This document shows, piece after piece, positions 21,315 to 45,151 of a stretch of 48,961 bases of DNA; the first letter of the stretch is position 1; each line of letters opens with the position of its first letter. The stretch is from a virus. Location of the stretch: IMG/VR virus record IMGVR_UViG_3300047409_000197, positions 1-48,961 of that record. One strand, written 5' to 3'. Position numbers and translations under genes: made by a program. The notes below the pieces were generated by a model. It did not search any database. It was not told the DNA's origin and worked only from the letters and a program-made list of their open reading frames with translations.

Positions 21315-22373
21315 ATGGCAACACTTGCAGCTGGCGTCCTTACTTACGCCGACTGGGCAAAACGTGTTTACAACGATTACAAAATCGGGTACATCGTTGA
21401 AGTTCTGTCCCAAACGAACGAAATCCTTCAGGATATGCTCGTTGGAGAGGGCAACCTCCCCACCGGCGATAAGACGGTCATCCGCACCGGCCTGCCGACC
21501 GCCACCTGGCGCCTGTTGAACACCGGCATTCAGCCCACCAAGTCGACCACCGCGCCCATCACGTTCACCTGCGGCAACCTCGAAGCTGAATCCCAGCTCG
21601 ACGTTGACGTAGCCAAACTGAACGGCGACACCGCGCAGTTCCGCCTGTCCGAGGCTCGCGCCTTCATCCAGGGCATGAACCAGCAGATGGCCGCGGCCTT
21701 GATGTACGGAAACCAGACGACGAACCCGGAACGGTTCACGGGGCTTGCGCCCCTGTACTCGACCGTGTCAACGGCGACCGCGCAGACCGCTTACAACGTG
21801 ATCGACGCGGGTGGTACGGGTTCTGACAACACCTCGATTTGGTTCGTCACTTGGGGACCCGACACGACCAAGGGTATCTTCCCGAAAGGTTCGATGGCCG
21901 GGCTCCAGCATCAGGACATGGGCAAGTGGCGCGTGCAGGATGTCGGCCAGACCTTCGCCACCGGCGCATACTACTGGGCCTGGGTCGATCACTTCAAGTG
22001 GGAACTCGGCCTCGCCGTCAAGGATTGGCGCTACAACGTCCGCATCGCGAATATCGACGTGTCCGACCTCCAGACCGTCAACGCCGCGAACCTGATCAAC
22101 GCCCTCGTCCGCGCCGCGAACCGCCTCCCGACCACCATGACCGGCCTGACTGCCGTTCAGACGTCTGACGCGCCGACCATTCAGGGCGCGATGGGCCGCA
22201 CCGTCATCTACGTCAACCGCACCGTTCGGACCTACCTCGAACTCCAGGCCATGAACAAAGTCAACGTCCTGCTCCAGCTCGTTGAGTGGCAGGGCCAGAC
22301 CATCCTGAAGTTCCGGGGCGTCCCGATCCGAACTGTGGACGCGATCCTCAACACCGAATCTCGCGTCGTCTAA
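21315..22373 (+). CDS. Major capsid protein (Bbp17-like)
   Basis: The 352-residue product follows the scaffold and precedes the cement protein, as in BPP-1. It begins ATLAAGVLTYADWAKRV and has features of an HK97-like capsid: an N-terminal arm, an NEILQDMLVGEGN segment and a long helix near residue 105 (SEARAFIQGMNQQMAAALMYG). A single cysteine is present. The coding DNA has a strong GC3 bias, as in highly expressed genes. The ribosome site lies within AAGGATAACTGAGTC just upstream. Confidence 0.9.
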   Translation: MATLAAGVLTYADWAKRVYNDYKIGYIVEVLSQTNEILQDMLVGEGNLPTGDKTVIRTGLPTATWRLLNTGIQPTKSTTAPITFTCGNLEAESQLDVDVAKLNGDTAQFRLSEARAFIQGMNQQMAAALMYGNQTTNPERFTGLAPLYSTVSTATAQTAYNVIDAGGTGSDNTSIWFVTWGPDTTKGIFPKGSMAGLQHQDMGKWRVQDVGQTFATGAYYWAWVDHFKWELGLAVKDWRYNVRIANIDVSDLQTVNAANLINALVRAANRLPTTMTGLTAVQTSDAPTIQGAMGRTVIYVNRTVRTYLELQAMNKVNVLLQLVEWQGQTILKFRGVPIRTVDAILNTESRVV

Positions 22374-22388
22374 GAAAGGACCCGCACC

Positions 22389-22838
22389 ATGATCCTCGAC
22401 GGACAACTTGTGTTCGATGCCTCGGGCACGACAATCACGACCACCGCAACCAGCACTAACGTCATCGACCTTTCGGTCGCCCGTGACCTCGGCGTTGGTG
22501 ACTATCCGGCCCTGAAACTGGCAATCTTCGTCGGCACGGCGTTCACGTCAACCGCCGCGGCGACCCTCCAGATCCAGGTCCAGGGTTCGACCGATAACAG
22601 CAACTTCACGACTATGGCCGAATCGCGTGCTTACGCCATCGCCGACCTCGTCGCCGGAACCAAGCTCTTCCCGATCGACCTCCCGGCAGCTGGCGGTGTT
22701 CAGGCTATCCCGCGTTATCTTCGCCTCAACTACGTTGGCGGAACGGCCACCTTCACCACCGGCAAATTGTCGGCTTACCTCGTCCTCGACCGCCCGGATA
22801 CCATCGCGTATCCTGCCGGCATCAACATCACGAACTGA
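22389..22838 (+). CDS. Capsid cement/decoration protein (Bbp16-like)
   Basis: The 149-residue beta-rich product (MILDGQLVFDASGTTITT, ATLQIQVQGSTDNSNFTT) matches the Bbp16 family, which forms trimers or dimers that lock the BPP-1 capsid. It lacks cysteine. It is 15 nt downstream of the capsid gene, with AAGGA 9 nt before ATG. Confidence 0.85.
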   Translation: MILDGQLVFDASGTTITTTATSTNVIDLSVARDLGVGDYPALKLAIFVGTAFTSTAAATLQIQVQGSTDNSNFTTMAESRAYAIADLVAGTKLFPIDLPAAGGVQAIPRYLRLNYVGGTATFTTGKLSAYLVLDRPDTIAYPAGINITN

Positions 22839-22849
22839 GGACGAAACAC

Positions 22850-23494
22850 ATGAACCGCAAGATCGCACTCGCGCTGGGGTTGGCCCTTTGGCCTGCCCTG
22901 GCTCTCGCCCAGCAACCCGGCGGCACCGGCGTCAACACCGTTCCGCAAGCTGGCGTTATCACCGGCATCAACAACCAGCAGTCCACTTATACCGCTGGTT
23001 TCATCGGCCTCGTTCCGCCCGCGTCGGCCACCGACACGATCTGCATCGCGGGGTCCTCGACCAAGACCATCGCGGTGACGAGGATTCAGCTTTCCGGCAC
23101 GGCGGGCACGCTTGTGACCTTGCCGATCACGCTCGTCCGTCGAGCCTCTGTAGACACCGGCGGCACCGCGGCCTCCACCACCGCGAACCCGGCGAATAAC
23201 ATCGCGAAGCACGACACCAACAACGGCACGGCTACGGCAGTTCCAATCGCTTACACCGCCGTCCCGACGATCCCTGACACCTCCCCGACGTACCTTCAAA
23301 CGGCCAACTTGACTTTGCCCGTCACGACTGCGGGCACGTCAACTGTTCCGCTTGATTGGCGCTTCGGCAACATCGCTACGGGCGAGCAGCCTTTGATCCT
23401 CCGTGGCGTCACGCAGCAACTTTGTCTCAACTTCAACACTATCTCGGTCTCGTCTGGCGTGCTTACCGGCTCGCTGACTTGGTACGAGTTCTAA
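22850..23494 (+). CDS. Signal-peptide structural protein (214 aa), function unknown
   Basis: The N-terminus is a textbook Sec signal: basic NRK, hydrophobic core IALALGLALWPALA, then the cleavage site ALA-QQ. The rest is Thr/Ala/Gly-rich and beta-like, with no charged domain and exactly two cysteines (TICIAG near residue 65 and QLCLNF near residue 190), which could form one disulfide. It lies directly after the head genes and before fibre-like genes. It may be a virion or tail protein that is exported, or a secreted decoy. The signal is clear; the role is unknown. Confidence 0.75.
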   Translation: MNRKIALALGLALWPALALAQQPGGTGVNTVPQAGVITGINNQQSTYTAGFIGLVPPASATDTICIAGSSTKTIAVTRIQLSGTAGTLVTLPITLVRRASVDTGGTAASTTANPANNIAKHDTNNGTATAVPIAYTAVPTIPDTSPTYLQTANLTLPVTTAGTSTVPLDWRFGNIATGEQPLILRGVTQQLCLNFNTISVSSGVLTGSLTWYEF

Positions 23495-23510
23495 CCGAAA
23501 GGTCTTCCCC

Positions 23511-23885
23511 ATGAAGTATCGTCTCGATGAAAGTCACTACGACGAATACGCTGAACTCCCTGCGGGCACGGAAGTCGGGGACGGGACGGCAGTTTCATGG
23601 AAATATCCTGAGACCATCGACAACGTGACTTTGAGGGGGAAGTACAAGCCCCCCTCAAAGTCAATGACGCCCCTCGACGACGAGGCGAAGAAGGCGTACG
23701 CGGAACACTTTAAGATCGAGGCGCCGGTGAAGGACCCGGAGAAGAAGCCCGCGATCTTCAGTGCTAATCCGAGTGATACCGGAACCGCCGCGCCTTCGAC
23801 CGGTAATACCTTCACCGGCAAGCCGATCTTGCCCCCAGCGTCAGCCCCTGTCTCTAAGCCCATCGACAAATCTGGAAGGGACTAA
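23511..23885 (+). CDS. Structural-region protein of unknown function (124 aa)
   Basis: Unlike the genes on both sides it has no signal peptide and no cysteine. The N-terminus is acidic (MKYRLDESHYDEYAELPAGTEV), the second half is Pro/Ala/Ser-rich and looks disordered (PSDTGTAAPSTGNTFTGKPIL). Its position fits a virion accessory protein made in the cytoplasm. Confidence 0.72.
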   Translation: MKYRLDESHYDEYAELPAGTEVGDGTAVSWKYPETIDNVTLRGKYKPPSKSMTPLDDEAKKAYAEHFKIEAPVKDPEKKPAIFSANPSDTGTAAPSTGNTFTGKPILPPASAPVSKPIDKSGRD

Positions 23886-23890
23886 CCCCA

Positions 23891-24553
23891 ATGCTTTCGC
23901 GTAGTGCTCTCATAGGCTCTTTAGCCGCAGGCTTCGTCTTTATGGGAGCCTACGCGGTTGGGCAGGTTGTCCCGCAGCCAGGACCCCCGTATAATATCGC
24001 CTGCGCCTATAACACGTCCCCCGTGACGTTGACCAACGGTCAGGCCGGATGGGTTCAATGTGATTCGAGTGGAAAACTCGCTATTTCCGCCACGATTGAT
24101 ACGACAGGGCTTGCAACCTCAGCTAATCAGGCGACAGAAATATCATCGCTTGCGACTATCGCTACTGCGGTACAGGCCGCGATCCCAGCGGGCACAGCAA
24201 TCATCGGCAAGGTCGGCATCGATCAGACCACGCCAGGCACCACGAATAATGTCAGCGTCTCTCCGCTCCCTCGCGCAGCACGCAACTTCCCCGGCTGCAC
24301 GGTCGGTAACACGACAACTAACTGCCTTGCCGCCTCAACGGCGGTGACGTTTCTTCAAATCCAGAACGTCGATACATCCGCGTCAATGGCATGCGCCTTT
24401 GGGGTATCGGCCGTGCTTAACGACAAAAGTTCGTTGCAGCTTGCCGCAGGGCAGGGCGCATCATGGGGACCAAACACTGGAGGCGTGCCGACCGGGCAGC
24501 TTAATTGCATCGCGTCAGGCGCGTCTAAGCCGCTTTATGTGGAGTGGAATTGA
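23891..24553 (+). CDS. Signal-peptide fibre-like protein (220 aa)
   Basis: The start SRSALIGSLAAGFVFMGAYA reads as a signal peptide with likely cleavage after AYA or AVG. The mature part is Thr/Ser/Ala-rich and contains six cysteines in short sets (NIAC, WVQC, FPGC with TNC, SMAC, QLNC). An even number and close pairs fit disulfides formed outside the cytoplasm. A helical repeat-like centre (ISSLATIATAVQAAIPAG) resembles fibre stalk regions. The gene overlaps the next by TGATG. It is probably part of the fibre or an exported surface protein. Confidence 0.75.
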   Translation: MLSRSALIGSLAAGFVFMGAYAVGQVVPQPGPPYNIACAYNTSPVTLTNGQAGWVQCDSSGKLAISATIDTTGLATSANQATEISSLATIATAVQAAIPAGTAIIGKVGIDQTTPGTTNNVSVSPLPRAARNFPGCTVGNTTTNCLAASTAVTFLQIQNVDTSASMACAFGVSAVLNDKSSLQLAAGQGASWGPNTGGVPTGQLNCIASGASKPLYVEWN

Positions 24554-25347
24554 TGATTAGCGCGCGCACCGATCAGTGGCTTCGCATCGCGGCTTTGTGC
24601 CTTGGCATTGCTGTCTTCTCGCTCGTCGGGTCGCAGGCGCAGATCGGGCCAGCGCCGGGCGGTGGCGGCGGCACGCCGGGTGGCAGCAATACGCAGTGCC
24701 AGTTCAACAATTCTGGCGCGTTCGGTGGGGATAGCGGTTGCATTTATGCAAGTGGAACACAGACGCTTAGCACTAAGTCCGTCGCCCCTAGTTTTGGCGA
24801 CGGAACTAATTTCCAAGTCAAGTGGATAACATCACCGGATACTGTCGCAGCTTTTAGAAACACCGCCGATAATGCTTATATTCAGGTTTATGCCTTTGCT
24901 TTTTTTGCTGGAAATTCCAGATATTCTTACGGACAGAATGGTGTTTTCAGTTCTGTCGCTAATAGTGCAAATTTAACGGCGTCGGACTGGCGTAGTGCAA
25001 TGCAGGCGCTTGAATTTGGTTCTGGCGCAGGTATGTCGTGGGCAACAACCAGTAATCAAGACAGTGGAACCTACGATACAGGCATTTCACGAAATGCAGC
25101 GGGCGTTGTTGAAGTTAATAATGCTACAGCAGGAGCATTTCGGGATGTGTTAGTGAGACAGATCATCACTAGCCCGGTTGCGGTTGGCTCATTACAAACT
25201 TGCAATTCTGGCAATAAGGGGGCACGAGCCTTTGTGACCGATAGTAATGCCGTATCTTTCACGGCAGGCATAGGAGCGGTGGTGGCCGCTGGCGGTTCAA
25301 CCAATGTCCCCGTCGTGTGCGATGGTACGAACTGGAGAATTGGGTAG
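24553..25347 (+). CDS. Signal-peptide fibre-like protein with NNSGAFGG motif (264 aa)
   Basis: ATG 24553 overlaps the previous stop. Residues 1-29 form a signal peptide (core IAALCLGIAVFSLVG, cleavage after SQA). A glycine-rich stretch leads to QFNNSGAFGGDSGC, a motif common at the start of phage tail fibre shafts, where the usual valine of TQVQFNN is cysteine. Four cysteines remain after the signal (TQC, SGC, QTC, VVC). The body is beta-rich and polar. A fibre or fibre-linked protein is likely, and the signal is unusual for one. Confidence 0.78.
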   Translation: MISARTDQWLRIAALCLGIAVFSLVGSQAQIGPAPGGGGGTPGGSNTQCQFNNSGAFGGDSGCIYASGTQTLSTKSVAPSFGDGTNFQVKWITSPDTVAAFRNTADNAYIQVYAFAFFAGNSRYSYGQNGVFSSVANSANLTASDWRSAMQALEFGSGAGMSWATTSNQDSGTYDTGISRNAAGVVEVNNATAGAFRDVLVRQIITSPVAVGSLQTCNSGNKGARAFVTDSNAVSFTAGIGAVVAAGGSTNVPVVCDGTNWRIG

Positions 25348-27291
25348 ATGTTTGCGACTGCCCGAATATTTCTTGCATTCGTCGTTGCCTTCATCATCGC
25401 GGAGGCGATGCCCAACACGGCAAAGTCGTGGATACACGGCGCTATCGCGCAAGGTAATTATTGGGTGCAATCAGGACTCAATATTTATTATAACACTGGA
25501 AATGTTAGTATTGGAACAACGACGAATCTAACACTTGCTCCGCTTGAAGTTGTTAACGGTATCAGTGTCACATGCACTAATCCTTCTGTTGGCAACGACG
25601 CGAACGAACGTCGCTGTTTAGACGTTCGTAATACGGTCAATACTTCAAATTCAAACCCGGATTTTACTAACGAAGAAAATATTGTTTCTTCTTTGACCGC
25701 TACCAATGGCCGTAATTTTTATAGTGCTGATACTCAAGTAAAGACAACTTTCTTCCCACTTAATATTTACGGGAATTATACTGCGGCAGGTCAGAAGTTT
25801 ATCCTTTCTAAATCGGCCGACTGTAAGGGTATGGGTGACTGCTTCATGGAGACGAAGCGGCTGACCTTTTCAGGAGGGCCGGTCTCTGGTGATGAGGGGC
25901 AATCGTGGGCATCGGTTGGGACTTTAGGGCAACCAAATAGCCTTTCGAGAGCGGCCATTGCGTCAATTCCGGCCCAAACAACCTGTAACACAACGCTTAC
26001 GCAGGCGGTTACCAGAAATATCAGCGCGCAAGCGGTTAGTGTTGCTAGTACGACAAATTGTAATGTTAATGATTGGGTCGTGATAGATCAAGCATTTGAC
26101 CAAGTGGCTCCGAATATTGAGGCGGTTCAGATCACCGCTGTTGGCGGGGGCAGGATCACGGCGGTATTTTCTGCTAATCATCAAAGCGGCCGAACAGTTA
26201 CGCCAGCAAAGGTGTTAGTGCTCGATAGCTTTGCTGGGAGTGGTTGGGGACAGGATAGAGAGGTCGTCAATCTATCCGGTGCATCTTATACAACTGGAAC
26301 CGTTGCTTCTATTGATAGTAGCTCGGGGTTTTCCAAGTTCGTAGGCTCAGGGACGACTTGGGCGAATAATATGGTTGGTGGAAGCGCAACGAATATTGGC
26401 TGCGCCTCGCTTGATAACGACACATTTAATGGTTCTCCGTTTAATGGGTCTGGAGCAACTTCTCCGCTACGCTCGTGGTACGTTATTAACAGCGTGATAG
26501 ATGCTACACATTTCAGCATTATATCTTTTGAGGTAGCCGCCAACATTTCATACCGAGGAAACGGAGTCGGATCTGGTGGCTATCAGGTGCGCCCATGCGC
26601 ACGTGCCTTGCGTATAAATGGCACTACCATAATTATGGAAACTACAGCCGCCACGTGGACTGTTGGTGATACACTTGAACAAGCAATAAATCCCTATCCT
26701 TATGTGGTTGGATATCAAGATCGTGTACAGGTGTGGACGCCGGGAATGTCTGTCAATGCGTATTTTGACCTTAAAAATGTAGGTGCTAGGGCGATGGCAT
26801 CCGGCTATTCTTGCGACTCAGTTATGGCTACAGGTTCGGGGGCGCAAACATACGGTTGGGAGTCGTGCGTCATAGCAAATAAAGCAAATTATGGATTGCG
26901 AACAAACGTAATAAACACCGCTGCTATTTATACAGAAAGCGCCTTTAGTTCTGGAAGTGTGACCGACAACGCCAGCAAAATAGTAATTGGCGGGCCGTAT
27001 GTGATGATGAACACCCCAAATGAGGGTATTTACTTTCAAACTACCCCCACTGGCGCTGGTGGTTTGGTCACGGTTAAAAGTCCGAATATAACACTAGAAG
27101 ATCGGCCGCGTTGGGATTGGGATGGTGCGTTTGGACTAACTAGGTATATATCTGGTATTGAAATCACTGCCCCTTCGGCTCCTGCCGCGAATGGCTGGCG
27201 TATTTACGGTAAAGATAATGGCGCAGGGAAAACGCAGATTTGCGCGCTATTCAATACTGGTGCAGAGCAATGCTTCGCAACTCAGCCATGA
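25348..27291 (+). CDS. Signal-peptide tail fibre / adhesin-like protein (647 aa)
   Basis: ATG 25348 follows the previous TAG at once. Residues 6-20 (RIFLAFVVAFIIAEA) form a signal or signal-anchor. The body is beta-rich with a NVSIGTTTN motif near residue 50 of the type seen in trimeric fibre heads, and 12 cysteines in sets such as KSADCKGMGDC and RPCARAL. The end contains ITAPSAPAANGWRIYGKDNGAGKTQICALF, a phage fibre C-terminal pattern. It is probably host-receptor binding. The DNA is AT-richer than the head genes, which fits a region under frequent exchange. Confidence 0.8.
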   Translation: MFATARIFLAFVVAFIIAEAMPNTAKSWIHGAIAQGNYWVQSGLNIYYNTGNVSIGTTTNLTLAPLEVVNGISVTCTNPSVGNDANERRCLDVRNTVNTSNSNPDFTNEENIVSSLTATNGRNFYSADTQVKTTFFPLNIYGNYTAAGQKFILSKSADCKGMGDCFMETKRLTFSGGPVSGDEGQSWASVGTLGQPNSLSRAAIASIPAQTTCNTTLTQAVTRNISAQAVSVASTTNCNVNDWVVIDQAFDQVAPNIEAVQITAVGGGRITAVFSANHQSGRTVTPAKVLVLDSFAGSGWGQDREVVNLSGASYTTGTVASIDSSSGFSKFVGSGTTWANNMVGGSATNIGCASLDNDTFNGSPFNGSGATSPLRSWYVINSVIDATHFSIISFEVAANISYRGNGVGSGGYQVRPCARALRINGTTIIMETTAATWTVGDTLEQAINPYPYVVGYQDRVQVWTPGMSVNAYFDLKNVGARAMASGYSCDSVMATGSGAQTYGWESCVIANKANYGLRTNVINTAAIYTESAFSSGSVTDNASKIVIGGPYVMMNTPNEGIYFQTTPTGAGGLVTVKSPNITLEDRPRWDWDGAFGLTRYISGIEITAPSAPAANGWRIYGKDNGAGKTQICALFNTGAEQCFATQP

Positions 27292-27334
27292 GAACCGCCT
27301 TCGAAATCAACTTCGCACTTTGGGGAATGATCGC

Positions 27335-30300
27335 ATGCGTCGTCTTGCACTTTTGGGGCTAATCGCCCTTTGGCCCGGACTGGCCGCGGCCCAGTGGCAG
27401 GTCCCAACCGGCTCGATTCCCCTCGGCAAGGGCCAGGGCAAGGTTGGCTTTGGTTTCGTCACCCCTTCCGGCGGCGGGACACAGTGCCTTCTCGACACCG
27501 CCCCGCCAACTTTCGGTGCTTGTGGGGCGGGGGGTCTTCCGTCTCTTACCAACGGCCGAATTTGGGTAGGCAACGGATCAAACGCCGCCGTCGCGGTTGT
27601 TATGTCCGGCGATTGCACTATCGTTGCGGCAGGTGCAATCACCTGCACTAAAACTGGCGGCGTTGCTTTCGGCCCCTTCGCCTCCGCAACCGGCACGGGT
27701 ATTCCTTCCCAAACCGGCAGCACAATTAACTTCCGCACAATCACCGGAACCACAAATCAAATCACCGCCACTAATGGCGATGGGACGTCTGGAAATCCAA
27801 CTCTTTCTTTCCCGACCGCGGATTTCATCTCTGTCAGCCCCGCTCTAGCCGCAGCATCATCTACTGTCGCGAAATTCAAAAACACAACCGCCGCTAATAA
27901 TACCGCGGTCGAGATTGACTCGGTTGCTAACCAAAACGCGGGTGTTGTTTTAGACAATAATACCGCAATTAAATGGGTGATTCGTAACACCGGCTCCGAC
28001 ACGACAAACAGATATTCAATCTTGAATGCAGCGGTGGCCTCTGAGGTATTCTCGATCTTGCAGGCCGGAGATGTCGGTGTTGGAACAACTACTCCATCGT
28101 CGCCGTCAGGCTTCACTAAAGCACTTGAATTATCACACGCATCCAGTGCTTCGTTTGTAGTAACTGGTGGAGCAAACCGCGCCGAGTTCGGTGTGTCGGC
28201 AAGCGGCGGCTACATTGGTAGCGCAGGAAGTCTACCTTTCCGCCTTGGTGCGGCTGGGGTTGAAAAGGCCAGAATCGATGCTTCTGGAAATTTTGGTTTT
28301 GGCACTACGACCCCGATTGTGAATGCGAATACAAGTATTTTTGCGACTTTATCTGGAGACGCTCTCGGCGCAAATAAATTCGGCGAGTTCTCGATAGGTG
28401 GCAATATCACCGGCACTAGTAATCCAGTTGGTAACCTAAATTTCTATAATAGTGCGCTTGGAACCGCAGACAAACGCATTGCTACGATCGCTGCATCGAA
28501 CAACGGTGCGACCAATTCAGGTGTACTTGATTTCTATACCTATAATGCAGGCACTCCTGCCTCGGCTATGACAATAGATAAATCTAGAAATGTTGGCATT
28601 GGGACATCGACGCCTTCCGCCCAGCTTCACACGACCAGCACCGTTCGCTTCGCCGGTCTTTCCGGCGTCGGGACCTCTGGCTGCCTTGGCAACGACACGT
28701 CCGGGAATATCACCGCAGGCAACCCCTGCACCGGCACCGGCTTTCCTTCTGGCGGTGTGAAGGGTGATATCGCATACTATAGCGCGGCGAGCACTGGCGC
28801 GGCGACGAAAGCCTCGGATGCGAACATCATTATCCAGGGCGGCGATCCGTCAGGTGGGTCAACCTCAACTGCGGCGGCGGTATTGGCATATGGATACTCG
28901 AAACGTATCGTTCTTCCTCCTGCTTCTGGCGGCGCAACGGGAGTATATAAATTCTCTACTGATGTTATTTTCCCAACCGGCACCGAATTGAATATTCCTT
29001 GTGGCGTAACTCTTAAGCCTGATAGTGGTAAGGTCGTCCGAAATATCGGTGTAACAAAGGGAGGGCAATGTCAGATTGCGGACACGTCTGCGGGTGGCAC
29101 GGTTTATCTCGGTCGTGACGTTAAGGCCGAATGGTGGCCCTCGACTGGTGGTGATAGCGCCCTTGCAATAAACGCAGCAGACGCGAGTACGACTGATGCG
29201 GTTACAAATAATGCGGATGGAGGCGAAACGATTATTCGGCTTGCCTGTAATAAAACTTACACACCTCTTACCTCAATTACTTTGCACGCAAAGTTGGGGA
29301 ACGACCAAAAGCTAGTCGGCTGTGGACCGAGTACTGTCTTCGATCCAACAGGCGGGTCGTTTTCGACTGGAGGAATGCTGACGCAAATCGGCGCGACCGG
29401 CAGCGACAGTCTTATGGCGTTTACCTGGAGTGACTTTACGGTCACCTGTTCTGCCGATCAAAACCTAGAGGCACTTACCCTTGCCGGTTCCGGGGGCGGA
29501 TCGAACTCGATTCGATCGAACACCAAAAACAGAATTGCGCGCTTGCGAATCACTGGTTGCCGCACAGGCATTGGATTTTATAATACTCGAAACGTTGTGG
29601 TTGAGGATGTCCAAATTCAGGTTCGCGGGGATACAACTTTTGACTCTCGAACCATGTACTTTGGTGGAGCTGCCTTTGTTGGCGACACTGATATTGTTCG
29701 TGGTCAATATGAATGTTCTCCTGGCCCAACCCCAACCGGCGGTGTAGGCTATGGTATGCGATTTGATTCTACGGCAGGAACCAACATTTCAGGTATTCGA
29801 GTTAATGGGACTGTATTTTATAATTGTAACAAGATGATTAACGCGACGTGGTCCTCTACAGGAACTATGGGAGATCACTGGTTCTACGGAGGCACTCAAT
29901 GTGAGACGTGCAGTAACATTGCTGATTACGGTGGAAGCGCGGCGGGTATCAATGCTGCAATGATTCGTTTCAATGATCTATATTTTACAAATTCACAAGA
30001 TACCCAATATACAGCAACGATTAGTGACGGTGCGGGTGGCTCCGGTAATCAAATGGCGATCTCTGCCGTCGTCTCTGGATTACCTGATTATAATACAAAA
30101 CTAAGAGTAGGATTTTCGGTTCGTGGTGCAGGTGTTACGGCTGGGACAATTGTTAGCGCACTTGGTACTTGCACAATGGTTCCGTTAGCTCCGTGTACAG
30201 CAACAGTAAGCAATAACCATACTATTCTTGGGGGGACTGCAATGGTATCAAACGATTCTCAACCCAAGTTCCGTTTTGATGGGGGAAATGCTGATGAAAT

Positions 30301-30676
30301 CGTAGACGTTTCGATTAACAAGGTTCGTATTCGAGGGGGCGGAGGTTGTACCTCATGTCGAATTGCGTCGTTTGCAGGAACCTCGTTAATCAATATTACT
30401 GATAATCAATTTGCGAGTGTAAATGGGTCTGGAAGTATGCCAGTAGAAATTTTCAGTTTTGTTAGTTCACGAAAAGCAACTATTATAGGTAACACAATAG
30501 ATCCATTTGGAATCTCTGGAGCCCCCGACCATTTAGTCTCTGCTTCGTCAAGCAGCAATGATATTGTAATTACAGGAAACAATGTTCGTGGTGGAGCCTC
30601 AGACATCGCTAATTTTAGCGGGGTGACTAATTCGTGCGTCAGTCTTAATCTCCCAAACTCGAATGTGTCATGCTAA
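27335..30676 (+). CDS. Signal-peptide tailspike/fibre, large (1113 aa), beta-helix type
   Basis: I choose ATG 27335 because it gives a perfect signal peptide (MRRLALLGLIALWPGLAAA, then QWQ) with GGGGA upstream; the longer frame from 27158 overlaps the previous gene. The shaft has GVGTTTP, GFGTTTP and GIGTSTP copies (about residues 250-430). After residue 500 VYLGRDVKAEWWPSTGGDSALAIN marks the head-binding/pectin-lyase start of tailspikes, followed by a beta-helix domain with NVVVEDVQIQ and similar rungs. It has 22 cysteines after the signal, mostly in close pairs. A polysaccharide-binding or depolymerase role is inferred; catalytic residues are not identified. Confidence 0.83.
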   Translation: MRRLALLGLIALWPGLAAAQWQVPTGSIPLGKGQGKVGFGFVTPSGGGTQCLLDTAPPTFGACGAGGLPSLTNGRIWVGNGSNAAVAVVMSGDCTIVAAGAITCTKTGGVAFGPFASATGTGIPSQTGSTINFRTITGTTNQITATNGDGTSGNPTLSFPTADFISVSPALAAASSTVAKFKNTTAANNTAVEIDSVANQNAGVVLDNNTAIKWVIRNTGSDTTNRYSILNAAVASEVFSILQAGDVGVGTTTPSSPSGFTKALELSHASSASFVVTGGANRAEFGVSASGGYIGSAGSLPFRLGAAGVEKARIDASGNFGFGTTTPIVNANTSIFATLSGDALGANKFGEFSIGGNITGTSNPVGNLNFYNSALGTADKRIATIAASNNGATNSGVLDFYTYNAGTPASAMTIDKSRNVGIGTSTPSAQLHTTSTVRFAGLSGVGTSGCLGNDTSGNITAGNPCTGTGFPSGGVKGDIAYYSAASTGAATKASDANIIIQGGDPSGGSTSTAAAVLAYGYSKRIVLPPASGGATGVYKFSTDVIFPTGTELNIPCGVTLKPDSGKVVRNIGVTKGGQCQIADTSAGGTVYLGRDVKAEWWPSTGGDSALAINAADASTTDAVTNNADGGETIIRLACNKTYTPLTSITLHAKLGNDQKLVGCGPSTVFDPTGGSFSTGGMLTQIGATGSDSLMAFTWSDFTVTCSADQNLEALTLAGSGGGSNSIRSNTKNRIARLRITGCRTGIGFYNTRNVVVEDVQIQVRGDTTFDSRTMYFGGAAFVGDTDIVRGQYECSPGPTPTGGVGYGMRFDSTAGTNISGIRVNGTVFYNCNKMINATWSSTGTMGDHWFYGGTQCETCSNIADYGGSAAGINAAMIRFNDLYFTNSQDTQYTATISDGAGGSGNQMAISAVVSGLPDYNTKLRVGFSVRGAGVTAGTIVSALGTCTMVPLAPCTATVSNNHTILGGTAMVSNDSQPKFRFDGGNADEIVDVSINKVRIRGGGGCTSCRIASFAGTSLINITDNQFASVNGSGSMPVEIFSFVSSRKATIIGNTIDPFGISGAPDHLVSASSSSNDIVITGNNVRGGASDIANFSGVTNSCVSLNLPNSNVSC

Positions 30677-30882
30677 AATACGGAGCCATCATTATCGTCC
30701 TAATGATCGCCATGCTCCTTGGCTGGTACTGGTCGCTGCCGCGCCTGGACCCGACCGGGAAGTATGACTCTTCCGCCGCGATCAAGGCAATGATTGATGA
30801 TCGGCCGGTCGTCAATGCCTCGTCCGGCTGGCCGATGACCCGCACCGGCTGGCCTTTCTTCGAGCGGTATTCACCCAAATGA
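30670..30882 (+). CDS. Small single-span membrane protein (70 aa)
   Basis: The N-terminal residues 4-24 (YGAIIIVLMIAMLLGWYWSL) form a transmembrane or uncleaved signal segment, followed by a short periplasmic-type domain (RLDPTGKYDSSAAIKAMIDD). It overlaps the tailspike stop by 7 nt. It precedes the holin, so a lysis or membrane role is likely; single-span proteins here can act as antiholins, which is speculative. Confidence 0.7.
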   Translation: MLKYGAIIIVLMIAMLLGWYWSLPRLDPTGKYDSSAAIKAMIDDRPVVNASSGWPMTRTGWPFFERYSPK

Positions 30883-30947
30883 TGATCGAGGCGATTCAGG
30901 AAATTGAACGTCTCAAAACCGGGGCGCTGCCCCAAAAGGAGAACCTC

Positions 30948-31274
30948 GTGAATAAAGAGCAAGTCAATTCTGGAATCCGTTGGTTCGTCTCGACCTTTGG
31001 CGGCGTCCTCGCCGGATACTTCGCCGCGTGGTCGGGGTGGTTCTCGGCGGATCAGATTGTCGGCGCGCTGAATAGCCCGACGTTTCTGGCCCTGGCGACT
31101 TCGATCGTGATGGGTGTGTGGGGCATCTTCAACAAGACCGACAAGAACATCGTCGCCTCTGCCGCGGCTTTGCCTCAGGTCTCTGCTATCACAGTATCCA
31201 CTCCGGCTCTTGCAGTTGCAGCTAAGGCCGCCGATCCAAGCACTAACGTCACGACGGAGCCTGTCACCAAGTGA
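30948..31274 (+). CDS. Holin (Pam3_gp28-like)
   Basis: The frame is open from ATG 30879, but GTG 30948 has AAAAGGAG exactly 6 nt upstream and begins MNKEQVNSGIRWFVSTFGG, matching known holins. The product of 108 residues has two or three hydrophobic segments (WFVSTFGGVLAGYFAAWSG, TFLALATSIVMGVWGIF) and an Ala-rich C-terminus. It would form the membrane lesion that starts lysis. A GGGGC-GCT-GCCCC hairpin lies just before the ribosome site. Whether the upstream ATG also makes a longer antiholin-like form is unproven. Confidence 0.78.
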   Translation: MNKEQVNSGIRWFVSTFGGVLAGYFAAWSGWFSADQIVGALNSPTFLALATSIVMGVWGIFNKTDKNIVASAAALPQVSAITVSTPALAVAAKAADPSTNVTTEPVTK

Positions 31275-31495
31275 GTTGGGTCAGTCTGCTTATCATCGTC
31301 CTGAAGTTCGCGTATGCCCTTTTAAACAAGGTGCATGACGAAGAACTGATTAACGAGGGCGAGGATCGGCAGATCACGAAGATGCTGATGGAAATGACGA
31401 AGCGGTCGAAGGTGGCGAAAGAGATCGATGACCGCTTCGCACACGCCACGCCGGAAGAAGTGGAGAAAGCACTTGACAAAGATTTTCGGGATTAG
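31271..31495 (+). CDS. Small membrane protein, possible i-spanin (74 aa)
   Basis: GTG 31271 overlaps the holin stop (GTGA). The product has one N-terminal hydrophobic segment (MSWVSLLIIVLKFAYALL) and a charged helical remainder (QITKMLMEMTKRSKVAKEID) that would be periplasmic or cytoplasmic. Its end overlaps a lipoprotein gene in another frame, as in i-spanin/o-spanin pairs. The short length is below normal Rz (about 150), so the assignment is tentative. Confidence 0.62.
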   Translation: MSWVSLLIIVLKFAYALLNKVHDEELINEGEDRQITKMLMEMTKRSKVAKEIDDRFAHATPEEVEKALDKDFRD

Positions 31496-31658
31496 TCTTC
31501 TGTTGATGCTGGGCGGATGCGCGCACGGGCAAGCCGTGGTCAGCGATTATTGCCAATTCTCGCGTATCATCCGCCCTTCGCATAAAGACACTTTCGAAAC
31601 CAAGCGCCAAATCGCCGCCGCAAACACAACTTATCGAACCCTGTGTCAAAGCCAATGA
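31473..31658 (+). CDS. Small lipoprotein, Rz1-like (putative o-spanin)
   Basis: A TTG at 31473 has GGAG 7 nt upstream and starts MTKIFGISLLLMLGGC, a lipoprotein signal with lipobox LGG-C at residue 16. The mature part of about 45 residues contains SDYC and TLC, with IRPSHKDTFETKRQIAAAN between, a pattern common in small phage lysis lipoproteins. It overlaps the preceding gene by 23 nt in another frame. The outer-membrane partner of spanin disruption is the probable role. The TTG start is inferred from the ribosome site and lipobox. Confidence 0.72.
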   Translation: MTKIFGISLLLMLGGCAHGQAVVSDYCQFSRIIRPSHKDTFETKRQIAAANTTYRTLCQSQ

Positions 31659-32339: not shown

Positions 32340-32736
32340 AAATTCCGTCACCAGCCAAATTTGGGGCTGGATGAAGGTCGACTGCGGCCCGACTATTGGC
32401 TGGGTTAACCGGCCGATGTTCAATGATACGATTATAACCTCGGGCACGACGTATACAGTGCAGCCGTTTGACTTTCAAATCCTCGTTTCGGTCAATGCGG
32501 ACTTTACCGTGACCTTGCCCGACGTGACGACGTGGAAACGGCAGCCCTACGGTTTGTTTCCCTTGTTCGTGAAGGACGTTGGAGGCTTCGCCACTGTTCA
32601 TAACATCACCGTGACCCCGGCAGGGTCAGATACGATCGACGGTCTTTCCGGCACCTCCGTCGCCATAGCCAGCGCCTACGGATCGTTATCTGTCCGCCCC
32701 CGTTTCGGTTCAACTGACTGGGTGCTCGCACCATGA
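32323..32736 (+). CDS. Beta-rich virion protein of unknown function (137 aa)
   Basis: ATG 32323 has GGTGA 5 nt upstream; a GTG at 32314 is possible. The product is beta-rich, with YTVQPFDFQILVSVNADFTV and VTPAGSDTIDGLSGTSVAIA, a pattern common in the repeats of fibre or tail-decoration proteins. It overlaps the previous gene by 17 nt and the tail tube gene by 4 nt. Its position suggests a tail component. Confidence 0.66.
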   Translation: MPTPPENSVTSQIWGWMKVDCGPTIGWVNRPMFNDTIITSGTTYTVQPFDFQILVSVNADFTVTLPDVTTWKRQPYGLFPLFVKDVGGFATVHNITVTPAGSDTIDGLSGTSVAIASAYGSLSVRPRFGSTDWVLAP

Positions 32737-33509
32737 GCAGCGATACGGAAGTTGCGAATCTGGCGCTGGCGAAGATTGGGACGCGGTCGACCATTGCCTC
32801 ACTTAGCGAGGACTCAAACGAGGCCCGTGCAATTAACCTGATCTACACCAATACCCGTGACCAAGTTCTTGGCATGGCCTTCTGGAACTTCGCGAGGAAG
32901 ACCGCTAACCTTGGCGTGCTGAAGATTGCGCCGGGGGCAATGGGGTCAACCTCGCCGGGCGGGAATGTTTGGGACCCCTCGTGGCCGCCGCCAGGCTGGC
33001 TGTACGAGTATGCTTATCCGTCCGATTGCATTCAGATGAGATTTGTGTCACCGCAGTTCTCGAACAACATCGGGATTGACGGCATCCCGGTCTTCGGCAA
33101 TGCGGTAACGACCGTCGCCCCTTACTCGACAGCCGCGGTTCGGTTCGAGGTCGCGACGGACAATATCAATAACATTCAACAGAATGTGATCCTGACTAAC
33201 CAGTACCAGGCCATCGGCGTTTACACCGTCCGCATAACCAACCCCGACCTGTGGTCCGCGCAGTTTATCGAAGCCCTTGCCGCAGCCATCGCAGGCCGGG
33301 TTTCGATGCAGTTGACGGGGGATAAAGGGCTGGTCTCGGCGATGTTTCAGTATGCTAATTCGGTTCTGCTCCAAGCCCGCGCCACGGACGGCAATGAGGG
33401 CCTGACCGTTCAATCCTCCATGCCCGACTGGATCATTGATCGGGACATCGGCGGTTACGGCAACTACGGCCCTTGGATAACCCCCTTCAATCCCCTCTTC
33501 GCGATATGA
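32733..33509 (+). CDS. Tail tubular protein A-like adaptor (gp11-like)
   Basis: The 258-residue product begins SSDTEVANLALAKIGTRSTIASL followed by EDSNEARAINLIYTNTRDQVL, the hallmark of the phage tail tube A / gp11-like adaptor family (N-terminal VANLALxKIG and a NLxYxxxRDxxL helix). It binds the portal and tail tube in podoviruses. Length and context fit well. Confidence 0.88.
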   Translation: MSSDTEVANLALAKIGTRSTIASLSEDSNEARAINLIYTNTRDQVLGMAFWNFARKTANLGVLKIAPGAMGSTSPGGNVWDPSWPPPGWLYEYAYPSDCIQMRFVSPQFSNNIGIDGIPVFGNAVTTVAPYSTAAVRFEVATDNINNIQQNVILTNQYQAIGVYTVRITNPDLWSAQFIEALAAAIAGRVSMQLTGDKGLVSAMFQYANSVLLQARATDGNEGLTVQSSMPDWIIDRDIGGYGNYGPWITPFNPLFAI

Positions 33510-33516
33510 GGATCAG

Positions 33517-33909
33517 ATGGTTTTGACAGCGAAAGACAATGAACGACTGAAGCGGGCGCACCCGGACCTCGCGAAGATCGTTCGTCACGCGGCGGAAATT
33601 ACAACCGTGCCCTTCACGATTCTTCAATCCGATCGAACCCTCGCGCAGCAACAGGCCAATGTCGCGAAGGGTGTCTCGCAAACGATGAAGTCGCGGCATT
33701 TGATCTCGCCTGATGGATTCGTTCGCGCGGTTGATATTGCTCCGCTGGAAGGAAAGAACGCTTCCTTCGCGTGGCCGCTTTATTACAAGTTCGCGCCGAT
33801 AATGAAGCAGGCGGCGAAGGACGTTGGGGTACCTGTTGAATGGGGCGGAGACTGGGTGAAGTTCAAAGACGGCCCGCATTGGCAATTGCCCTGGAAGCAA
33901 TACCCGTAA
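33517..33909 (+). CDS. Endolysin: M15-family L-alanyl-D-glutamate peptidase
   Basis: The 130-residue product has the M15 (VanY/CwlK) motifs SRHLISPDGFVRAVDIAP with H61 and D73 as zinc ligands, EWGGDW at 108-113 and DGPHW with H121. No signal peptide is present, so it needs the holin to reach the cell wall. It is 7 nt after the tail tube gene, away from the holin, so the lysis genes are spread out. It would cut peptide cross-links of peptidoglycan. Confidence 0.92.
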   Translation: MVLTAKDNERLKRAHPDLAKIVRHAAEITTVPFTILQSDRTLAQQQANVAKGVSQTMKSRHLISPDGFVRAVDIAPLEGKNASFAWPLYYKFAPIMKQAAKDVGVPVEWGGDWVKFKDGPHWQLPWKQYP

Positions 33910-42700: not shown

Positions 42701-45151
42701 TTTAATCAACTGCGGTCCTTGCTGTCAGACCTGGGTTTCGACACGAAAGGCGACGTGACGCGGTCTGCGACTTCCCTCGGCGATTTCGTCGCGAACAGTG
42801 ACGGGCAATTGGCGGTGGCGGCGTGGTTGACTGACGGCACGATGCTGCCGCGCGATCCGAGCAAGCTCACTGTTCAACAAATGACCGAGCTTGGTAAGTC
42901 AATCGACTCAATGATGCACGTTGGGCGCGAGGTCAAGACCCTTGACTCGGCGCGCGGGAAAGCGGGGTTGCAGAATGTCATCTTCGACGTTAAGGGCGAG
43001 CTTGATCGTTTTGATTTTGTTGCAAACCCTCTTAACCCTACAGTTGGTCAGAGAGCTAAGGGGCTCGCTCGTTGGGTGTCAGCCTGGAGCCTTCTTGTTG
43101 AGAGGATGCTCGACTACACCGACAAGTTCGATCCCAACGGCCCTCTCACTACCTATCTGGACCGACCCCTCCGTGACGCAAACGTTAAAGAGATTCAACT
43201 CAACGAAAATGTTACTCGAGCCCTCAGAAAACTGAGCGAGCTAACTGATAACTCGATTAACGACATTATCCCAAACAATGTAATCCCCTCCGTCCGCAAC
43301 GATTCCGGTTTCCTCGACATGAACCGGCGGAATCTGCGACAGTTGATGGGGTATATGGGGTCGGAATCAGGTATTGCAAAAGTCGTGAATGGCTGGAAGG
43401 TTGACGAGGCCGCGGTTTGGAAACTGATTAACGACAACGCGACGAAGGCGGACTGGCAGTGGGTTGCCGGGATGCATAAGATTTTTGAGGGCCTGTGGGC
43501 CGAAGCAGCGGCGATGATTGAGAGGGATACAGGGGTTCCGGCTGATAAGATCGATCCAAAGGTAATGAAGTCTGAAAAGTTCGGCGACTTCCCTGGCGGA
43601 TACTGGCCGATTAAGTACGATCGGATTGACTCGAATATCGAGGGCCATGTTGCCGGGAAGCGGTCGCTGTTCGATAAGCACTACGTCTACGCCGCCACGC
43701 CGCAGGCATACACCTTACCGCGGACTGAATGGTGGGGAGCGTTGGACCTTAGCGGTCAGCTTATTGCCTCGCATCTTCGCGGCGTGATCCATGATATAGC
43801 CTTCCGCGAGGCGGTGCGTAATGCGGCGAAGCTGATTAATAGTCAAGAATTTATGTCGGAAATGACGCAGAAATGGGGGAAGGAATACGCGGGCCTTATG
43901 CCGGGGTGGATTAAGGACATAGCCAACGCACACAACGTTGACGACTCGTACGCACAAGGAGCAGCCCGGTTCTTCTCACTCGTTCGGCAAAATCTAACCG
44001 CGACCTTGATCGCATGGAATCCAGGAACGGTGATTAAGCATGGCGGCACGGCGCTGGGAATGTCGGCGGCGGCGGTAGGGCCAGGGAAGTTCCTGTCGTC
44101 GACTTGGGAGTTCGGTCTTCGTGGAATGGCCGGGGCGGCGAAAGACTTGATGACTGGACAAGTCGAGCGCCCTACCGAACAGATGCTTGATGCACTGAAA
44201 GCCGTGACGGACCCTGGCGAGTACGGGGACGGCGTGCGGCAATTCATTCTTGACTCGTCGGCCGTGATGCGCAATCGTCAGCGGCAATCGATGGACAACA
44301 TTCGCGAGCAAATGAACCGGAATCTGCGCTCGGGCGGAACGCAGACTTTCATGGATTTCCGGGGCGCGGCGTTAGACTTTGGCCGAGTGCCAATCGCGGC
44401 GTCAGATGCGGTCTCGGCTTTCCCGACCTGGCTCGCGGCATATAAGGAATCGATGGCCCGGACTGGCGACCACGCGCAATCGGTGTTTGAGGCGGATAAG
44501 CAAGTCTCCCGCGCGCACGGATCAGGGTTCATAGGTGACAAGCCCCGCGTCCTCCGCACCGGCGAGGCAATGCGCTGGGTGACGCCGCTTTATAACTTCT
44601 TCAATCACAACTTCAACATGGCCCTGCAATGGGCTTGGGACGCAGGGGCAAAGTGGAAGGGGCGGGACGAGCCGGGCGCGAATATTGGGAGTCTGAGTAA
44701 CCGAATGTTCTGGGGCTTCATGATGGCCGTGGCGATGGAAGAACTGGCGGCACCGGCGTTGGATCAGAGTAAGCGAGGGATTGGAACGTCGCTGTTGCTC
44801 GCCGGTATTCGCCATGTCGGCGCTTGGATGCCGGGACTTCGTGACTTCACCAATGCCCTCGCGAGTGGATATGAACCGTCAGTCGGCTTTCTTGGCACGG
44901 TCGCAAAGACGATCGCGGATACCGCGAAGGACGTTTCGAAGTCACTCCAGGCCGGGAAGACCGTCAGCCAGAATTGGCTCGTCCACACCGCAACCGCTAT
45001 CGGCCTCGCAACCGGCATCGGTGGCTCGCAGTTTGGTCGTACAGGTTCTTATCTGAAAGATCGCGCTACCGGCCGAGAACGCACACCACGCACCTGGGAT
45101 GAACTTCGTCAAGGCCTCCGCACCGGCCACTCCAAATCGAGGGTACACTAA
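39779..45151 (+). CDS. Giant internal virion protein with ART-PolyVal-like domain (1790 aa)
   Basis: ATG 39779 is chosen over TTG 39773. The protein is the largest of the window. Residues about 390-650 hold an ADP-ribosyltransferase-like domain of the polyvalent-protein type: FHGSPHTFDAFD near 392, SYGHGLYFAENPEVASIYK near 418, GIPGIKYLDQGSR near 575 and NFVIFDPASVTILE near 635. Long helical parts follow, with repeated acidic/basic coiled coils, and at the end a GTSLLLAGIRHVGAWMPG segment. It corresponds to a large core protein like T7 gp16. Ejection of an enzyme into the host is plausible; target unknown. Confidence 0.82.
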   Translation: MADNEYLGLIGAPAQPRQAPQPQPGGKNEYLDLIDSNVIALPRAQAGALKKPDQAGQAVQLGQSMGFPSSVIGADLENYQQIDKGQKAAQAIERNQWISGYVARNPEAAEVSNDDYDKLETLSKKVQPFTIAGRSGGLLQAAPEFVLNTLPQLGSMLSTSEGRSKLLGGVTKFGEQFASILGSPRDAEKQGFDIHDPADLDRAMSLGMLIGLGKQAPKVGLPVAAKFEIGVKSVSTGAELDRFLIDAILTKGQDPKTVLQIEHAKADSAALDSAVAAASETATKGRAPTLLDDFVKGHETGTLSIPAETIAEVYRAEGKVPVVGDGLFGFVPDLARKLPGAADTGTEIDVPVASYLAHIDPTVHEKVKKAIRFSNDGMTLAEAKEADPNAIEAFHGSPHTFDAFDISKIGTGEGAQSYGHGLYFAENPEVASIYKERLAGKAAPMGGVHGGQLEIRQEQGMWNVYQDGELVNAFGAKSDAERYINQGSFYKVAITANREHFLDWDKPLSEQPQAVKDYFTSQYNRLKEAGLPFEVSSEMTGEELYRGLTGGAYDARLPSPESVSSEMAAAGIPGIKYLDQGSRIFQGAAGEARAKQIERALKESPSDGTPEGNARIEKLQKELDSLSKPTSNFVIFDPASVTILERNGQALRAAAQVEETELGLRPLLTEPLPGQTKTDFERYNKKIIAAQQKALDKATEVQTREATKRQGEEWKANEAALRPEVEAEVRVFPDIAADRFLRDGTLPDGSTMPKVRLDEGYVNALLPKTEIPAMMLAKDGIHPDDIAPLFGFNSGAEMVRSLNDLNAARRGAKESPTQHLNRLIKEELNAQMEAKYGNLDASIAEEARALALDDLHFDILADELRALATEAGGTMPISKDGIKALVQDHFARLDAKEAANFEKFQKAAGRNGLLAERALLKGDAIEAFNAKQKQAMNFLLAKEAQKFGKLVDRIAKKIDRVTKNDSISSMNQEHFNQLRSLLSDLGFDTKGDVTRSATSLGDFVANSDGQLAVAAWLTDGTMLPRDPSKLTVQQMTELGKSIDSMMHVGREVKTLDSARGKAGLQNVIFDVKGELDRFDFVANPLNPTVGQRAKGLARWVSAWSLLVERMLDYTDKFDPNGPLTTYLDRPLRDANVKEIQLNENVTRALRKLSELTDNSINDIIPNNVIPSVRNDSGFLDMNRRNLRQLMGYMGSESGIAKVVNGWKVDEAAVWKLINDNATKADWQWVAGMHKIFEGLWAEAAAMIERDTGVPADKIDPKVMKSEKFGDFPGGYWPIKYDRIDSNIEGHVAGKRSLFDKHYVYAATPQAYTLPRTEWWGALDLSGQLIASHLRGVIHDIAFREAVRNAAKLINSQEFMSEMTQKWGKEYAGLMPGWIKDIANAHNVDDSYAQGAARFFSLVRQNLTATLIAWNPGTVIKHGGTALGMSAAAVGPGKFLSSTWEFGLRGMAGAAKDLMTGQVERPTEQMLDALKAVTDPGEYGDGVRQFILDSSAVMRNRQRQSMDNIREQMNRNLRSGGTQTFMDFRGAALDFGRVPIAASDAVSAFPTWLAAYKESMARTGDHAQSVFEADKQVSRAHGSGFIGDKPRVLRTGEAMRWVTPLYNFFNHNFNMALQWAWDAGAKWKGRDEPGANIGSLSNRMFWGFMMAVAMEELAAPALDQSKRGIGTSLLLAGIRHVGAWMPGLRDFTNALASGYEPSVGFLGTVAKTIADTAKDVSKSLQAGKTVSQNWLVHTATAIGLATGIGGSQFGRTGSYLKDRATGRERTPRTWDELRQGLRTGHSKSRVH

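Follow-up and report, generated by a model that had tools for sequence, protein, structure and literature searches.

A family of uncultured, soil-type tailed phages was found to carry, inside its virion-gene operon, a block of fiber-like and capsid decoration-like proteins, almost all of which begin with a protein-export signal and have paired cysteines, suggesting that they are sent out of the host cytoplasm to fold, which is not how tailed phages are known to build their parts. The sequence from which the analysis started, the IMG/VR virus record IMGVR_UViG_3300047409_000197 (positions 1 to 48,961; this whole stretch of 48,961 nucleotides is further called the window), belongs to a BPP-1/epsilon15-like podophage, with the capsid, cement, tail-tube and internal virion genes in the order typical of this group and with a 10-kb insertion between the cement and the tail-tube genes. 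The earlier note had claimed that five proteins of this region each have a Sec signal and an even number of cysteines, mostly in close pairs, and this observation was confirmed and proved to be general among related loci, although close pairing was not shown for every protein.

The insertion, all on the plus strand, is bordered upstream by the major capsid protein gene (21315..22373), which served as the anchor for the locus comparison and whose product has about 50% identity to the phiV10 major head protein and 45% to BPP-1 Bbp17, and by a cement/decoration protein gene of the Bbp16 family (22389..22838; Pfam Bbp16 4e-20, phrog_427 6e-29). The block itself starts with P0001 (22850..23494), consisting of a signal peptide (22850-22909) and a predicted single jelly-roll domain with two conserved cysteines (65 and 192). 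It is followed by P0002 (23511..23885), a small charged protein without signal and cysteine, which is a conserved neighbor in the block, and by P0003 (23891..24553), with a signal peptide (23891-23956) and a 198-residue domain with 6 cysteines. P0004 (24553..25347) has a signal peptide (24553-24639), a TQCQFNN/GDSGC module (Cys 49 and 63) and a C-terminal AFVTD...VCDGTNW module (Cys 217 and 256), while P0005 (25348..27291) combines a signal peptide (25348-25407) with a fiber-like protein containing a VSIGTTT repeat and 12 mature cysteines. The last and largest product, P0006 (27335..30676), includes a signal peptide (27335-27391), an N-terminal GKGxG/C..C module, a GIGT-repeat shaft-like stretch and a cysteine-rich C-terminal part, with 22 cysteines. 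Possible lysis genes (30670..31658, small membrane proteins with a spanin-like overlapping pair) are located directly after the block, assigned by arrangement only, without a family match. The downstream border of the insertion is the tail-tube adaptor gene (32733..33509, phrog_394 tail protein 1e-41), next to an endolysin gene (33517..33909, phrog_465 1e-47). A cytoplasmic-type collar fiber without a signal but with the N-terminal fiber anchor domain is encoded at 45151..46770 (phrog_1640 tail 4.6e-38, Pfam Collar 1e-8), on the plus strand like all of the genes above.

All five open reading frames exist at the starts given in the earlier note, each behind a purine-rich, RBS-like stretch. The signals were evaluated with a rule-based Sec/SPI score and not with SignalP; 11 of 12 known E. 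coli signals passed the threshold of 4.6, with PhoA scoring 4.48. The possibility that the signals would score low had been raised in advance as a reason to reject export, but P0001 and P0003 to P0006 reached 5.58, 5.05, 5.23, 5.74 and 5.81, respectively, and no other late gene scored from its annotated start, while the terminase scored only from an internal start. The number of cysteines after the predicted cleavage is 2, 6, 4, 12 and 22, exactly as claimed, with one more inside the signal of P0004, compared to 1 in the capsid protein, 3 in the fiber at 45151 and 3 in the portal protein (the latter by reading of the sequence).

A comparison with relatives, which had likewise been proposed as a check because homologues lacking the N-terminal segment would have argued against export, showed that in related IMG/VR loci 125 of 280 genes at positions +2 to +5 from the capsid gene score as signal-bearing, in contrast to 0 of 300 head genes at positions -3 to 0 and 0 of 258 genes at +2 to +5 in phiV10-type relatives under 60% identity. 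Of the 63 loci with at least 2.5 kb after the capsid gene, 56 have a signal-bearing gene. The signals are conserved by family, while their letters diverge: 20 of 20 clustered relatives of P0001, 26 of 28 members of another family and 13 of 13 of yet another are signal-bearing. In homology searches 47 of 54 homologues of P0001, 7 of 7 homologues of P0003 and the single full-length relative of P0005 (E 2.6e-115) had a signal, and the N-terminal module of P0006 is shared with the proteins L014 and L097 from related loci, both with a signal and with the Cys pair. An alternative, that the N-terminal segments are not cleaved and represent functional hydrophobic ends of virion proteins, for example for membrane contact during DNA entry, might be considered because hydrophobic N-termini are present on many proteins of the structural operon. 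Actual translocation and cleavage were not measured, but this alternative is very unlikely in view of the full three-part signal architecture, with A at -1 in 122 of 131 and A at -3 in 92 of 131 sequences (although the scoring rule itself favors these residues), of the lack of sequence conservation in the segment, of the parity of mature cysteines and of the exact replacement of a start Met by a signal in one relative (both described below).

Even cysteine counts in five proteins alone are weak evidence (1 in 32) and were set aside as such before the larger set was made. In the latter, the mature counts were even in 83 of 90 non-redundant signal-bearing proteins against 62 of 134 neighbors and 88 of 194, and, with one protein per family, in 43 of 48 (p 7e-9) against 24 of 61. 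Pairing between sequence neighbors was observed in 43 of 59 cases against 27.5 expected (p 4e-5). Within the window, close pairing is real for P0006 (mean gaps of 16.8 within and 87.7 between pairs, 0 of 20,000 permutations) and P0005 (p 0.017), but it was not shown for P0003. In the P0001 family the Cys pair is invariant in 13 members and conserved to at least 90% in 39 members. The claim that the usual valine of the fiber motif TQVQFNN is replaced by cysteine in P0004 was also correct: the protein reads TQCQFNN, with 13 residues between Cys 49 and 63, while none of 80 proteins with the general motif has that cysteine and no other viral contig matched a QCQFN pattern.

Another fiber motif exists in two forms, which split by signal: the form GDN...IATTAFV is almost never accompanied by a signal (3 of 82), while the form CPTRP.GD..NACASTAFV almost always directly follows one (67 of 76 by strict score, most of the rest looking signal-bearing by eye; p about 1e-30). 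It might be argued that disulfides form only after lysis, as in Agrobacterium phage Milano, and that the signals have another reason or are over-called. The structural proteins of Milano hold 2.1% Cys and many disulfides, without signal peptides being mentioned in the paper (PMC10811340), and some tailspike-like proteins without a signal in the same block of the loci studied here are also Cys-rich. However, cysteine parity and density are tied to the signal and not to position, the two motif forms split by signal, and no head gene at -3 to 0 is signal-bearing, making this explanation improbable.

In PHROGs no family was found for P0001 and P0003 to P0006, and Pfam produced a single sub-threshold hit. 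Kinship with fiber modules was evident for P0004 and P0006 by motif and for relatives of the cassette, but was not shown for P0001 and P0003, the latter being unassigned. Signal-bearing relatives carry Pfam Collar (3.5e-14) and PHROG tail, fiber and spike matches. In one of them, L434, position 2 of the phrog_1640 profile falls on residue 34, exactly after the predicted cleavage at 33, so that a signal peptide replaces exactly the start Met of the canonical fiber-anchor domain, and this was the only such anchor found in that 62-kb record. This is, however, a single record with a modest E-value (0.0034 in PHROGs; 3e-22 by phmmer with P0007). In 48 Cys-form fibers the first 35 mature residues are 57% identical and the rest only 22-23%, and 64 of 78 Cys-form loci also hold window-type structural genes.

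The AlphaFold2 model of P0001 (pLDDT 89.4) is a jelly-roll, for which VIA-align lists phage turret, cement and capsid chains among the best matches. A first model with the signal included (pLDDT 75.8) gave only weak matches. Foldseek against PDB gave no match at 1e-3, and the VIA-align matches were middling (Z up to 8.5, mostly with unrelated capsids), which leaves it undecided whether the fold is close to that of a solved decoration protein; since a shared fold shows no function, these matches were not used to claim one. The P0001 family and a family of 140-residue small proteins are not detectably related by profile and have no solved relative by sequence, and neither P0005 nor P0006 has a sequence relative in PDB.

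Searches outside the IMG/VR loci were mostly negative. A tblastn search with P0006, P0001 and another small signal-bearing family against isolated phages gave no match, and a full Cys-form fiber gave one chance-level hit. The Cys-form motif produced nothing in plasmids and only short hits in isolated phages, of which the three that were read had no signal and no cysteine. No homologue of the P0001 family was found in 84,980 genomes with the patterns used, while the Cys motif gave five scattered hits there which were not examined further, so the host is unknown. The insertion is variable between relatives, which could point to lysogenic-conversion or host-surface genes (morons) picked up between late genes, but this is highly unlikely, given that the modules are phage fiber modules, that a site in a late structural operon suggests late expression, and that no homologue of the P0001 family was found in these genomes with the patterns used.

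The explanation favored here, with moderate confidence, is that the block is a cassette of phage-encoded virion accessory proteins (a jelly-roll decoration-like protein, small beta proteins and fiber/spike-like proteins) made with cleavable Sec signals. In this view, the proteins cross the inner membrane, lose the signal and fold in the periplasm with disulfides, largely between sequence neighbors, and at lysis, when periplasm and cytoplasm mix, they would attach to virions already assembled in the cytoplasm, adding oxidized, robust receptor-binding or decorating parts. The sequences provide strong inference for the export signals, the disulfide pairing and the kinship with phage fiber modules, while attachment to virions and its timing are inferred only: no protein was tested experimentally, there was neither an isolate nor proteomics of virions, none of the five window proteins carries a known virion-attachment domain, and the window also has an ordinary cytoplasmic fiber. 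A less likely but possible alternative is that the proteins are exported and disulfide-bonded but never join the virion, acting as secreted or surface-retained receptor-binding mimics or enzymes which block superinfection, keep progeny from sticking to debris or cut exopolysaccharide. It shares the same export evidence and is compatible with fiber-like binding modules that could cover receptors, with lipobox-like signals in some members of one small family that could tether them, and with the presence of a separate fiber without a signal in the window. On the other hand, the genes are located inside the virion operon beside the cement gene, fiber-anchor and collar domains follow signals in some relatives, many small domains without enzyme signatures occur together, and no enzyme family reached a curated cut-off. 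The interpretation in the earlier note, which offered outside assembly, a secreted depolymerase or decoy, or surface display changing receptor access, was partly supported: export to an oxidizing place is strongly supported by comparative evidence, and the virion-type folds and domains, the signal-bearing fiber anchor and the conserved N-terminus with a variable C-terminus lean to virion parts joined outside the cytoplasm without excluding secreted blockers or enzymes, but not all five proteins are fibers.

Tailed-phage assembly is generally taken to be cytoplasmic, and the lack of a signal peptide has been cited as support for the phage origin of variable proteins (PMC6199706). It is about as likely as not that a large clade of tailed phages builds part of its virion outside the cytoplasm, with whole cassettes of Sec-exported decoration and fiber proteins oxidized in the periplasm and added to finished particles at lysis, and with ordinary fiber modules converted for this purpose by gaining a signal peptide plus paired cysteine staples. 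Such a cassette would add a second assembly compartment, help to explain disulfide-rich environmental virions and give a simple rule (a signal plus paired cysteines at fixed motif positions) for finding them; if the proteins are secreted instead, it would be an unrecognized phage secretome of receptor-binding modules. No described phage with this property was found in what was searched, nor did literature searches on signal peptides and phage virion or tail proteins, limited to open-access papers, find a report of the phenomenon.

Among the closest known systems, the minor coat protein G3p of the filamentous phage M13 belongs to a non-tailed phage extruded through the membrane and has a membrane anchor; sequence kinship with it was not examined. 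Agrobacterium phage Milano has a Cys-rich virion with extensive disulfides (PMC10811340), but it has a contractile tail and its disulfides include inter-subunit ones. The tailed-phage cement, decoration and turret jelly-rolls are represented by the HFTV1 turret, KHP40 cement, and GP4 and Pam1 capsid chains, to which the P0001 model aligns with Z 5.6-7.5; values below 8 may mean only a common arrangement, and P0001 differs in having a signal peptide and a conserved Cys pair. Repeat motifs homologous to the fiber modules with GDN...IATTAFV or TQVQFNDGG are present in isolated phages, such as Touem01 and Dinoroseobacter phage R5C, but the isolated versions have no signal and no cysteine. Finally, the podophages BPP-1, epsilon15 and phiV10 share with the window the portal, capsid, Bbp16 cement, tail-tube and internal virion genes in the same order, but have no signal-bearing genes between the cement and the tail tube, as judged from the relatives under 60% identity.

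The analyzed stretch comprised a whole IMG/VR virus record of 48,961 bases, the completeness of which is not stated. The capsid protein was about 50% identical to that of phiV10 and 45% to that of BPP-1, and the record also encoded a Bbp16-type cement protein, tail-tube proteins, internal virion proteins, an endolysin and a collar fibre with the usual N-terminal anchor. A glycosyltransferase-like ORF (recognized by eye) was located at 19539-20315 between the portal and the scaffold/protease genes, which is an unusual place. While in BPP-1, phiV10 and a Manatee Spring phage the cement gene is followed within a few short genes by the tail-tube gene, here the two were separated by 10 kb containing five signal-bearing proteins, one small protein without a signal and a run of small genes resembling lysis genes.

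A rule-based Sec/SPI score was applied to the late genes, low-scoring signals having been foreseen in the earlier note as evidence against its claim. The score passed 11 of 12 known E. coli signals and all five proteins of the block, while no other late gene scored from its annotated start; SignalP was not run. The cysteine numbers after the signal were 2, 6, 4, 12 and 22. Hence, the observation made in the earlier note, that five proteins of this region combine a Sec-type signal with an even number of cysteines, was confirmed. The close pairing, also claimed there for most of the cysteines, was evident in P0006, the protein of the block with 22 cysteines, in which short gaps (mean 16.8) alternated with long ones (87.7), a pattern not matched by any of 20,000 permutations; P0005, a fibre-like protein with 12 cysteines, gave p 0.017 and P0003, with six cysteines, p 0.17.

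The capsid-based searches resulted in 86 loci at 60% identity or more, some of which overlap or repeat each other, and 74 more distant loci (individual loci are designated below by L numbers). Genes scoring as signal-bearing accounted for 45/79, 25/73, 28/67 and 27/61 at positions +2, +3, +4 and +5 after the capsid, respectively, in contrast to 0 of 300 at positions -3 to 0 and 0 of 258 at positions +2 to +5 in the distant set. ORFs on the opposite strand scored in 44 of 1185 cases, indicating a background of the method near 4%. The description of this group as soil-type rests on the impression from the sample set rather than on a test, and the host is unknown. Further signal-bearing fibre-like genes were present 4 to 9 genes before the capsid gene in L021, L125, L127, L140 and L159, which represents a second place for such genes.

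Homologues lacking the N-terminal segment would have spoken against the export signals, as anticipated in the earlier note, but the families kept the signal: 20/20 in the family of P0001 (the predicted jelly-roll protein of the block), 26/28, 13/13 and 7/7 in further families, and others. In the P0001 family the signal letters diverged, while Cys65 and Cys192 were invariant in 13 members and at least 90% conserved in 39. P0003 had 7 of 7 signal-bearing homologues, while for P0005 one full-length relative (two loci from one contig) was found, also with a signal. P0006 shared its N-terminal module, together with the signal and the Cys pair, with proteins of L014 and L097, whereas P0004, the protein with the TQCQFN module, had no full-length relative. 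The small charged protein encoded at 23511-23885, with neither signal nor cysteine, was also conserved and sat among the signal-bearing genes in many relatives (a cluster of 43 members in 29 loci). Two signal-bearing cassette proteins, L095:12253 and L097:9485, had twin-arginine (Tat-like) signals (TRRGLLR and TRRKIL), which would export folded protein, and three members of one small Cys-rich family, L019:5559, L132:2402 and L152:10274, had lipobox-like signals (LLGC), so that some cassette proteins may be lipoproteins.

Among 98 non-redundant signal-bearing proteins (60% identity), 90 contained cysteines and 83 of these had an even number (p 7e-18), in comparison to 62 of 134 neighbours without a signal and 88 of 194 upstream genes. 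The cysteine density was 1.75 against 0.95 per 100 residues. Since the loci are not all independent, the test was also made on these dereplicated proteins and at the family level, whereby one protein per family gave 43 of 48 even (p 7e-9) against 24 of 61. Neither a higher score threshold nor removal of the lipobox-like cases changed this result. Tailspike-like proteins without a signal in the same block (L014:7971, L014:9425 and L094:15463) were, however, also Cys-rich (10-16 cysteines), which is against a strict link of cysteines to export. Pairing of sequence neighbours was enriched in the signal-bearing set (43 of 59, expected 27.5) and not clearly in the others. This is what disulfide bonding in an oxidising compartment would select.

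A natural experiment was provided by a common fibre motif, APTP..GDNsTxIATTAFV, which also exists in a cysteine form, CPTRP.GD.sNACASTAFV, with A and I changed to C at matching places. Two separate pattern scans yielded 82 N-terminally complete proteins with the first form, of which 3 had a signal, and 76 with the second form, of which 67 had a signal by the strict score (Fisher p 1.5e-30); most of the remaining nine looked signal-bearing when read by eye, while one, in L467, was a chance match. When both Cys positions were required and duplicates removed, 54 proteins had signal and Cys, 1 signal only, 5 Cys only and 74 neither. The Cys form sat directly after the signal, and 64 of 78 such loci also encoded structural genes of the type found in the analyzed record, so that an independent query led back to the same phage group. 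In contrast, the three isolated phages with the first form that were read had neither a signal nor a cysteine. P0004 showed the same kind of change in another module, from TQVQFN to TQCQFN, which none of 80 other carriers had. Ten proteins with the QFN fibre motif, in L256, L267, L270 and L272, scored as signal-bearing without the cysteine, so exported fibres may exist in other phage groups.

None of the five proteins matched PHROGs or reached a Pfam cut-off, while signal-bearing relatives carried Pfam Collar (3.5e-14) and PHROG tail, fibre and spike matches. In L434, a 62-kb record with a 41%-identical capsid, the fibre-anchor profile began at its position 2 on residue 34 and the predicted cleavage was after residue 33, so that the signal stood exactly in place of the start Met; this was the only such anchor found in that record. 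In 48 Cys-form fibres the first 35 mature residues were 57% identical and the rest 22-23%, although part of the N-terminal conservation comes from selecting by the motif. The model of mature P0001 (39 sequences, pLDDT 89.4) was a jelly-roll. Its best matches in viral models were uncharacterised proteins of uncultured tailed phages (E 1e-13), while among solved structures the matches of middling score included capsid proteins and tailed-phage turret and cement proteins.

From the conserved signals, the cysteine parity and the motif swap, Sec export, signal cleavage and disulfide formation are strongly inferred. Binding to finished virions when lysis mixes the compartments, as decoration and receptor-binding parts, is the probable mode of action but is inferred only; neither proteomics nor an isolate formed part of the analysis, and a secreted receptor blocker or enzyme remains the main rival. 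The interpretation of the earlier note, which had proposed outside assembly, a secreted depolymerase or decoy, or surface display, was supported in part. The novelty of the cassette was judged from profile libraries, records of isolated phages and open-access papers, so that a report in a subscription journal could have been missed. The closest working precedent is G3p of M13, a Sec-dependent virion protein (PMC8310372). On the other hand, the Agrobacterium phage Milano shows that a disulfide-rich virion needs no reported signal peptide (PMC10811340), so the parity and the motif swap, which follow the signal rather than the gene position, are the key evidence for export.
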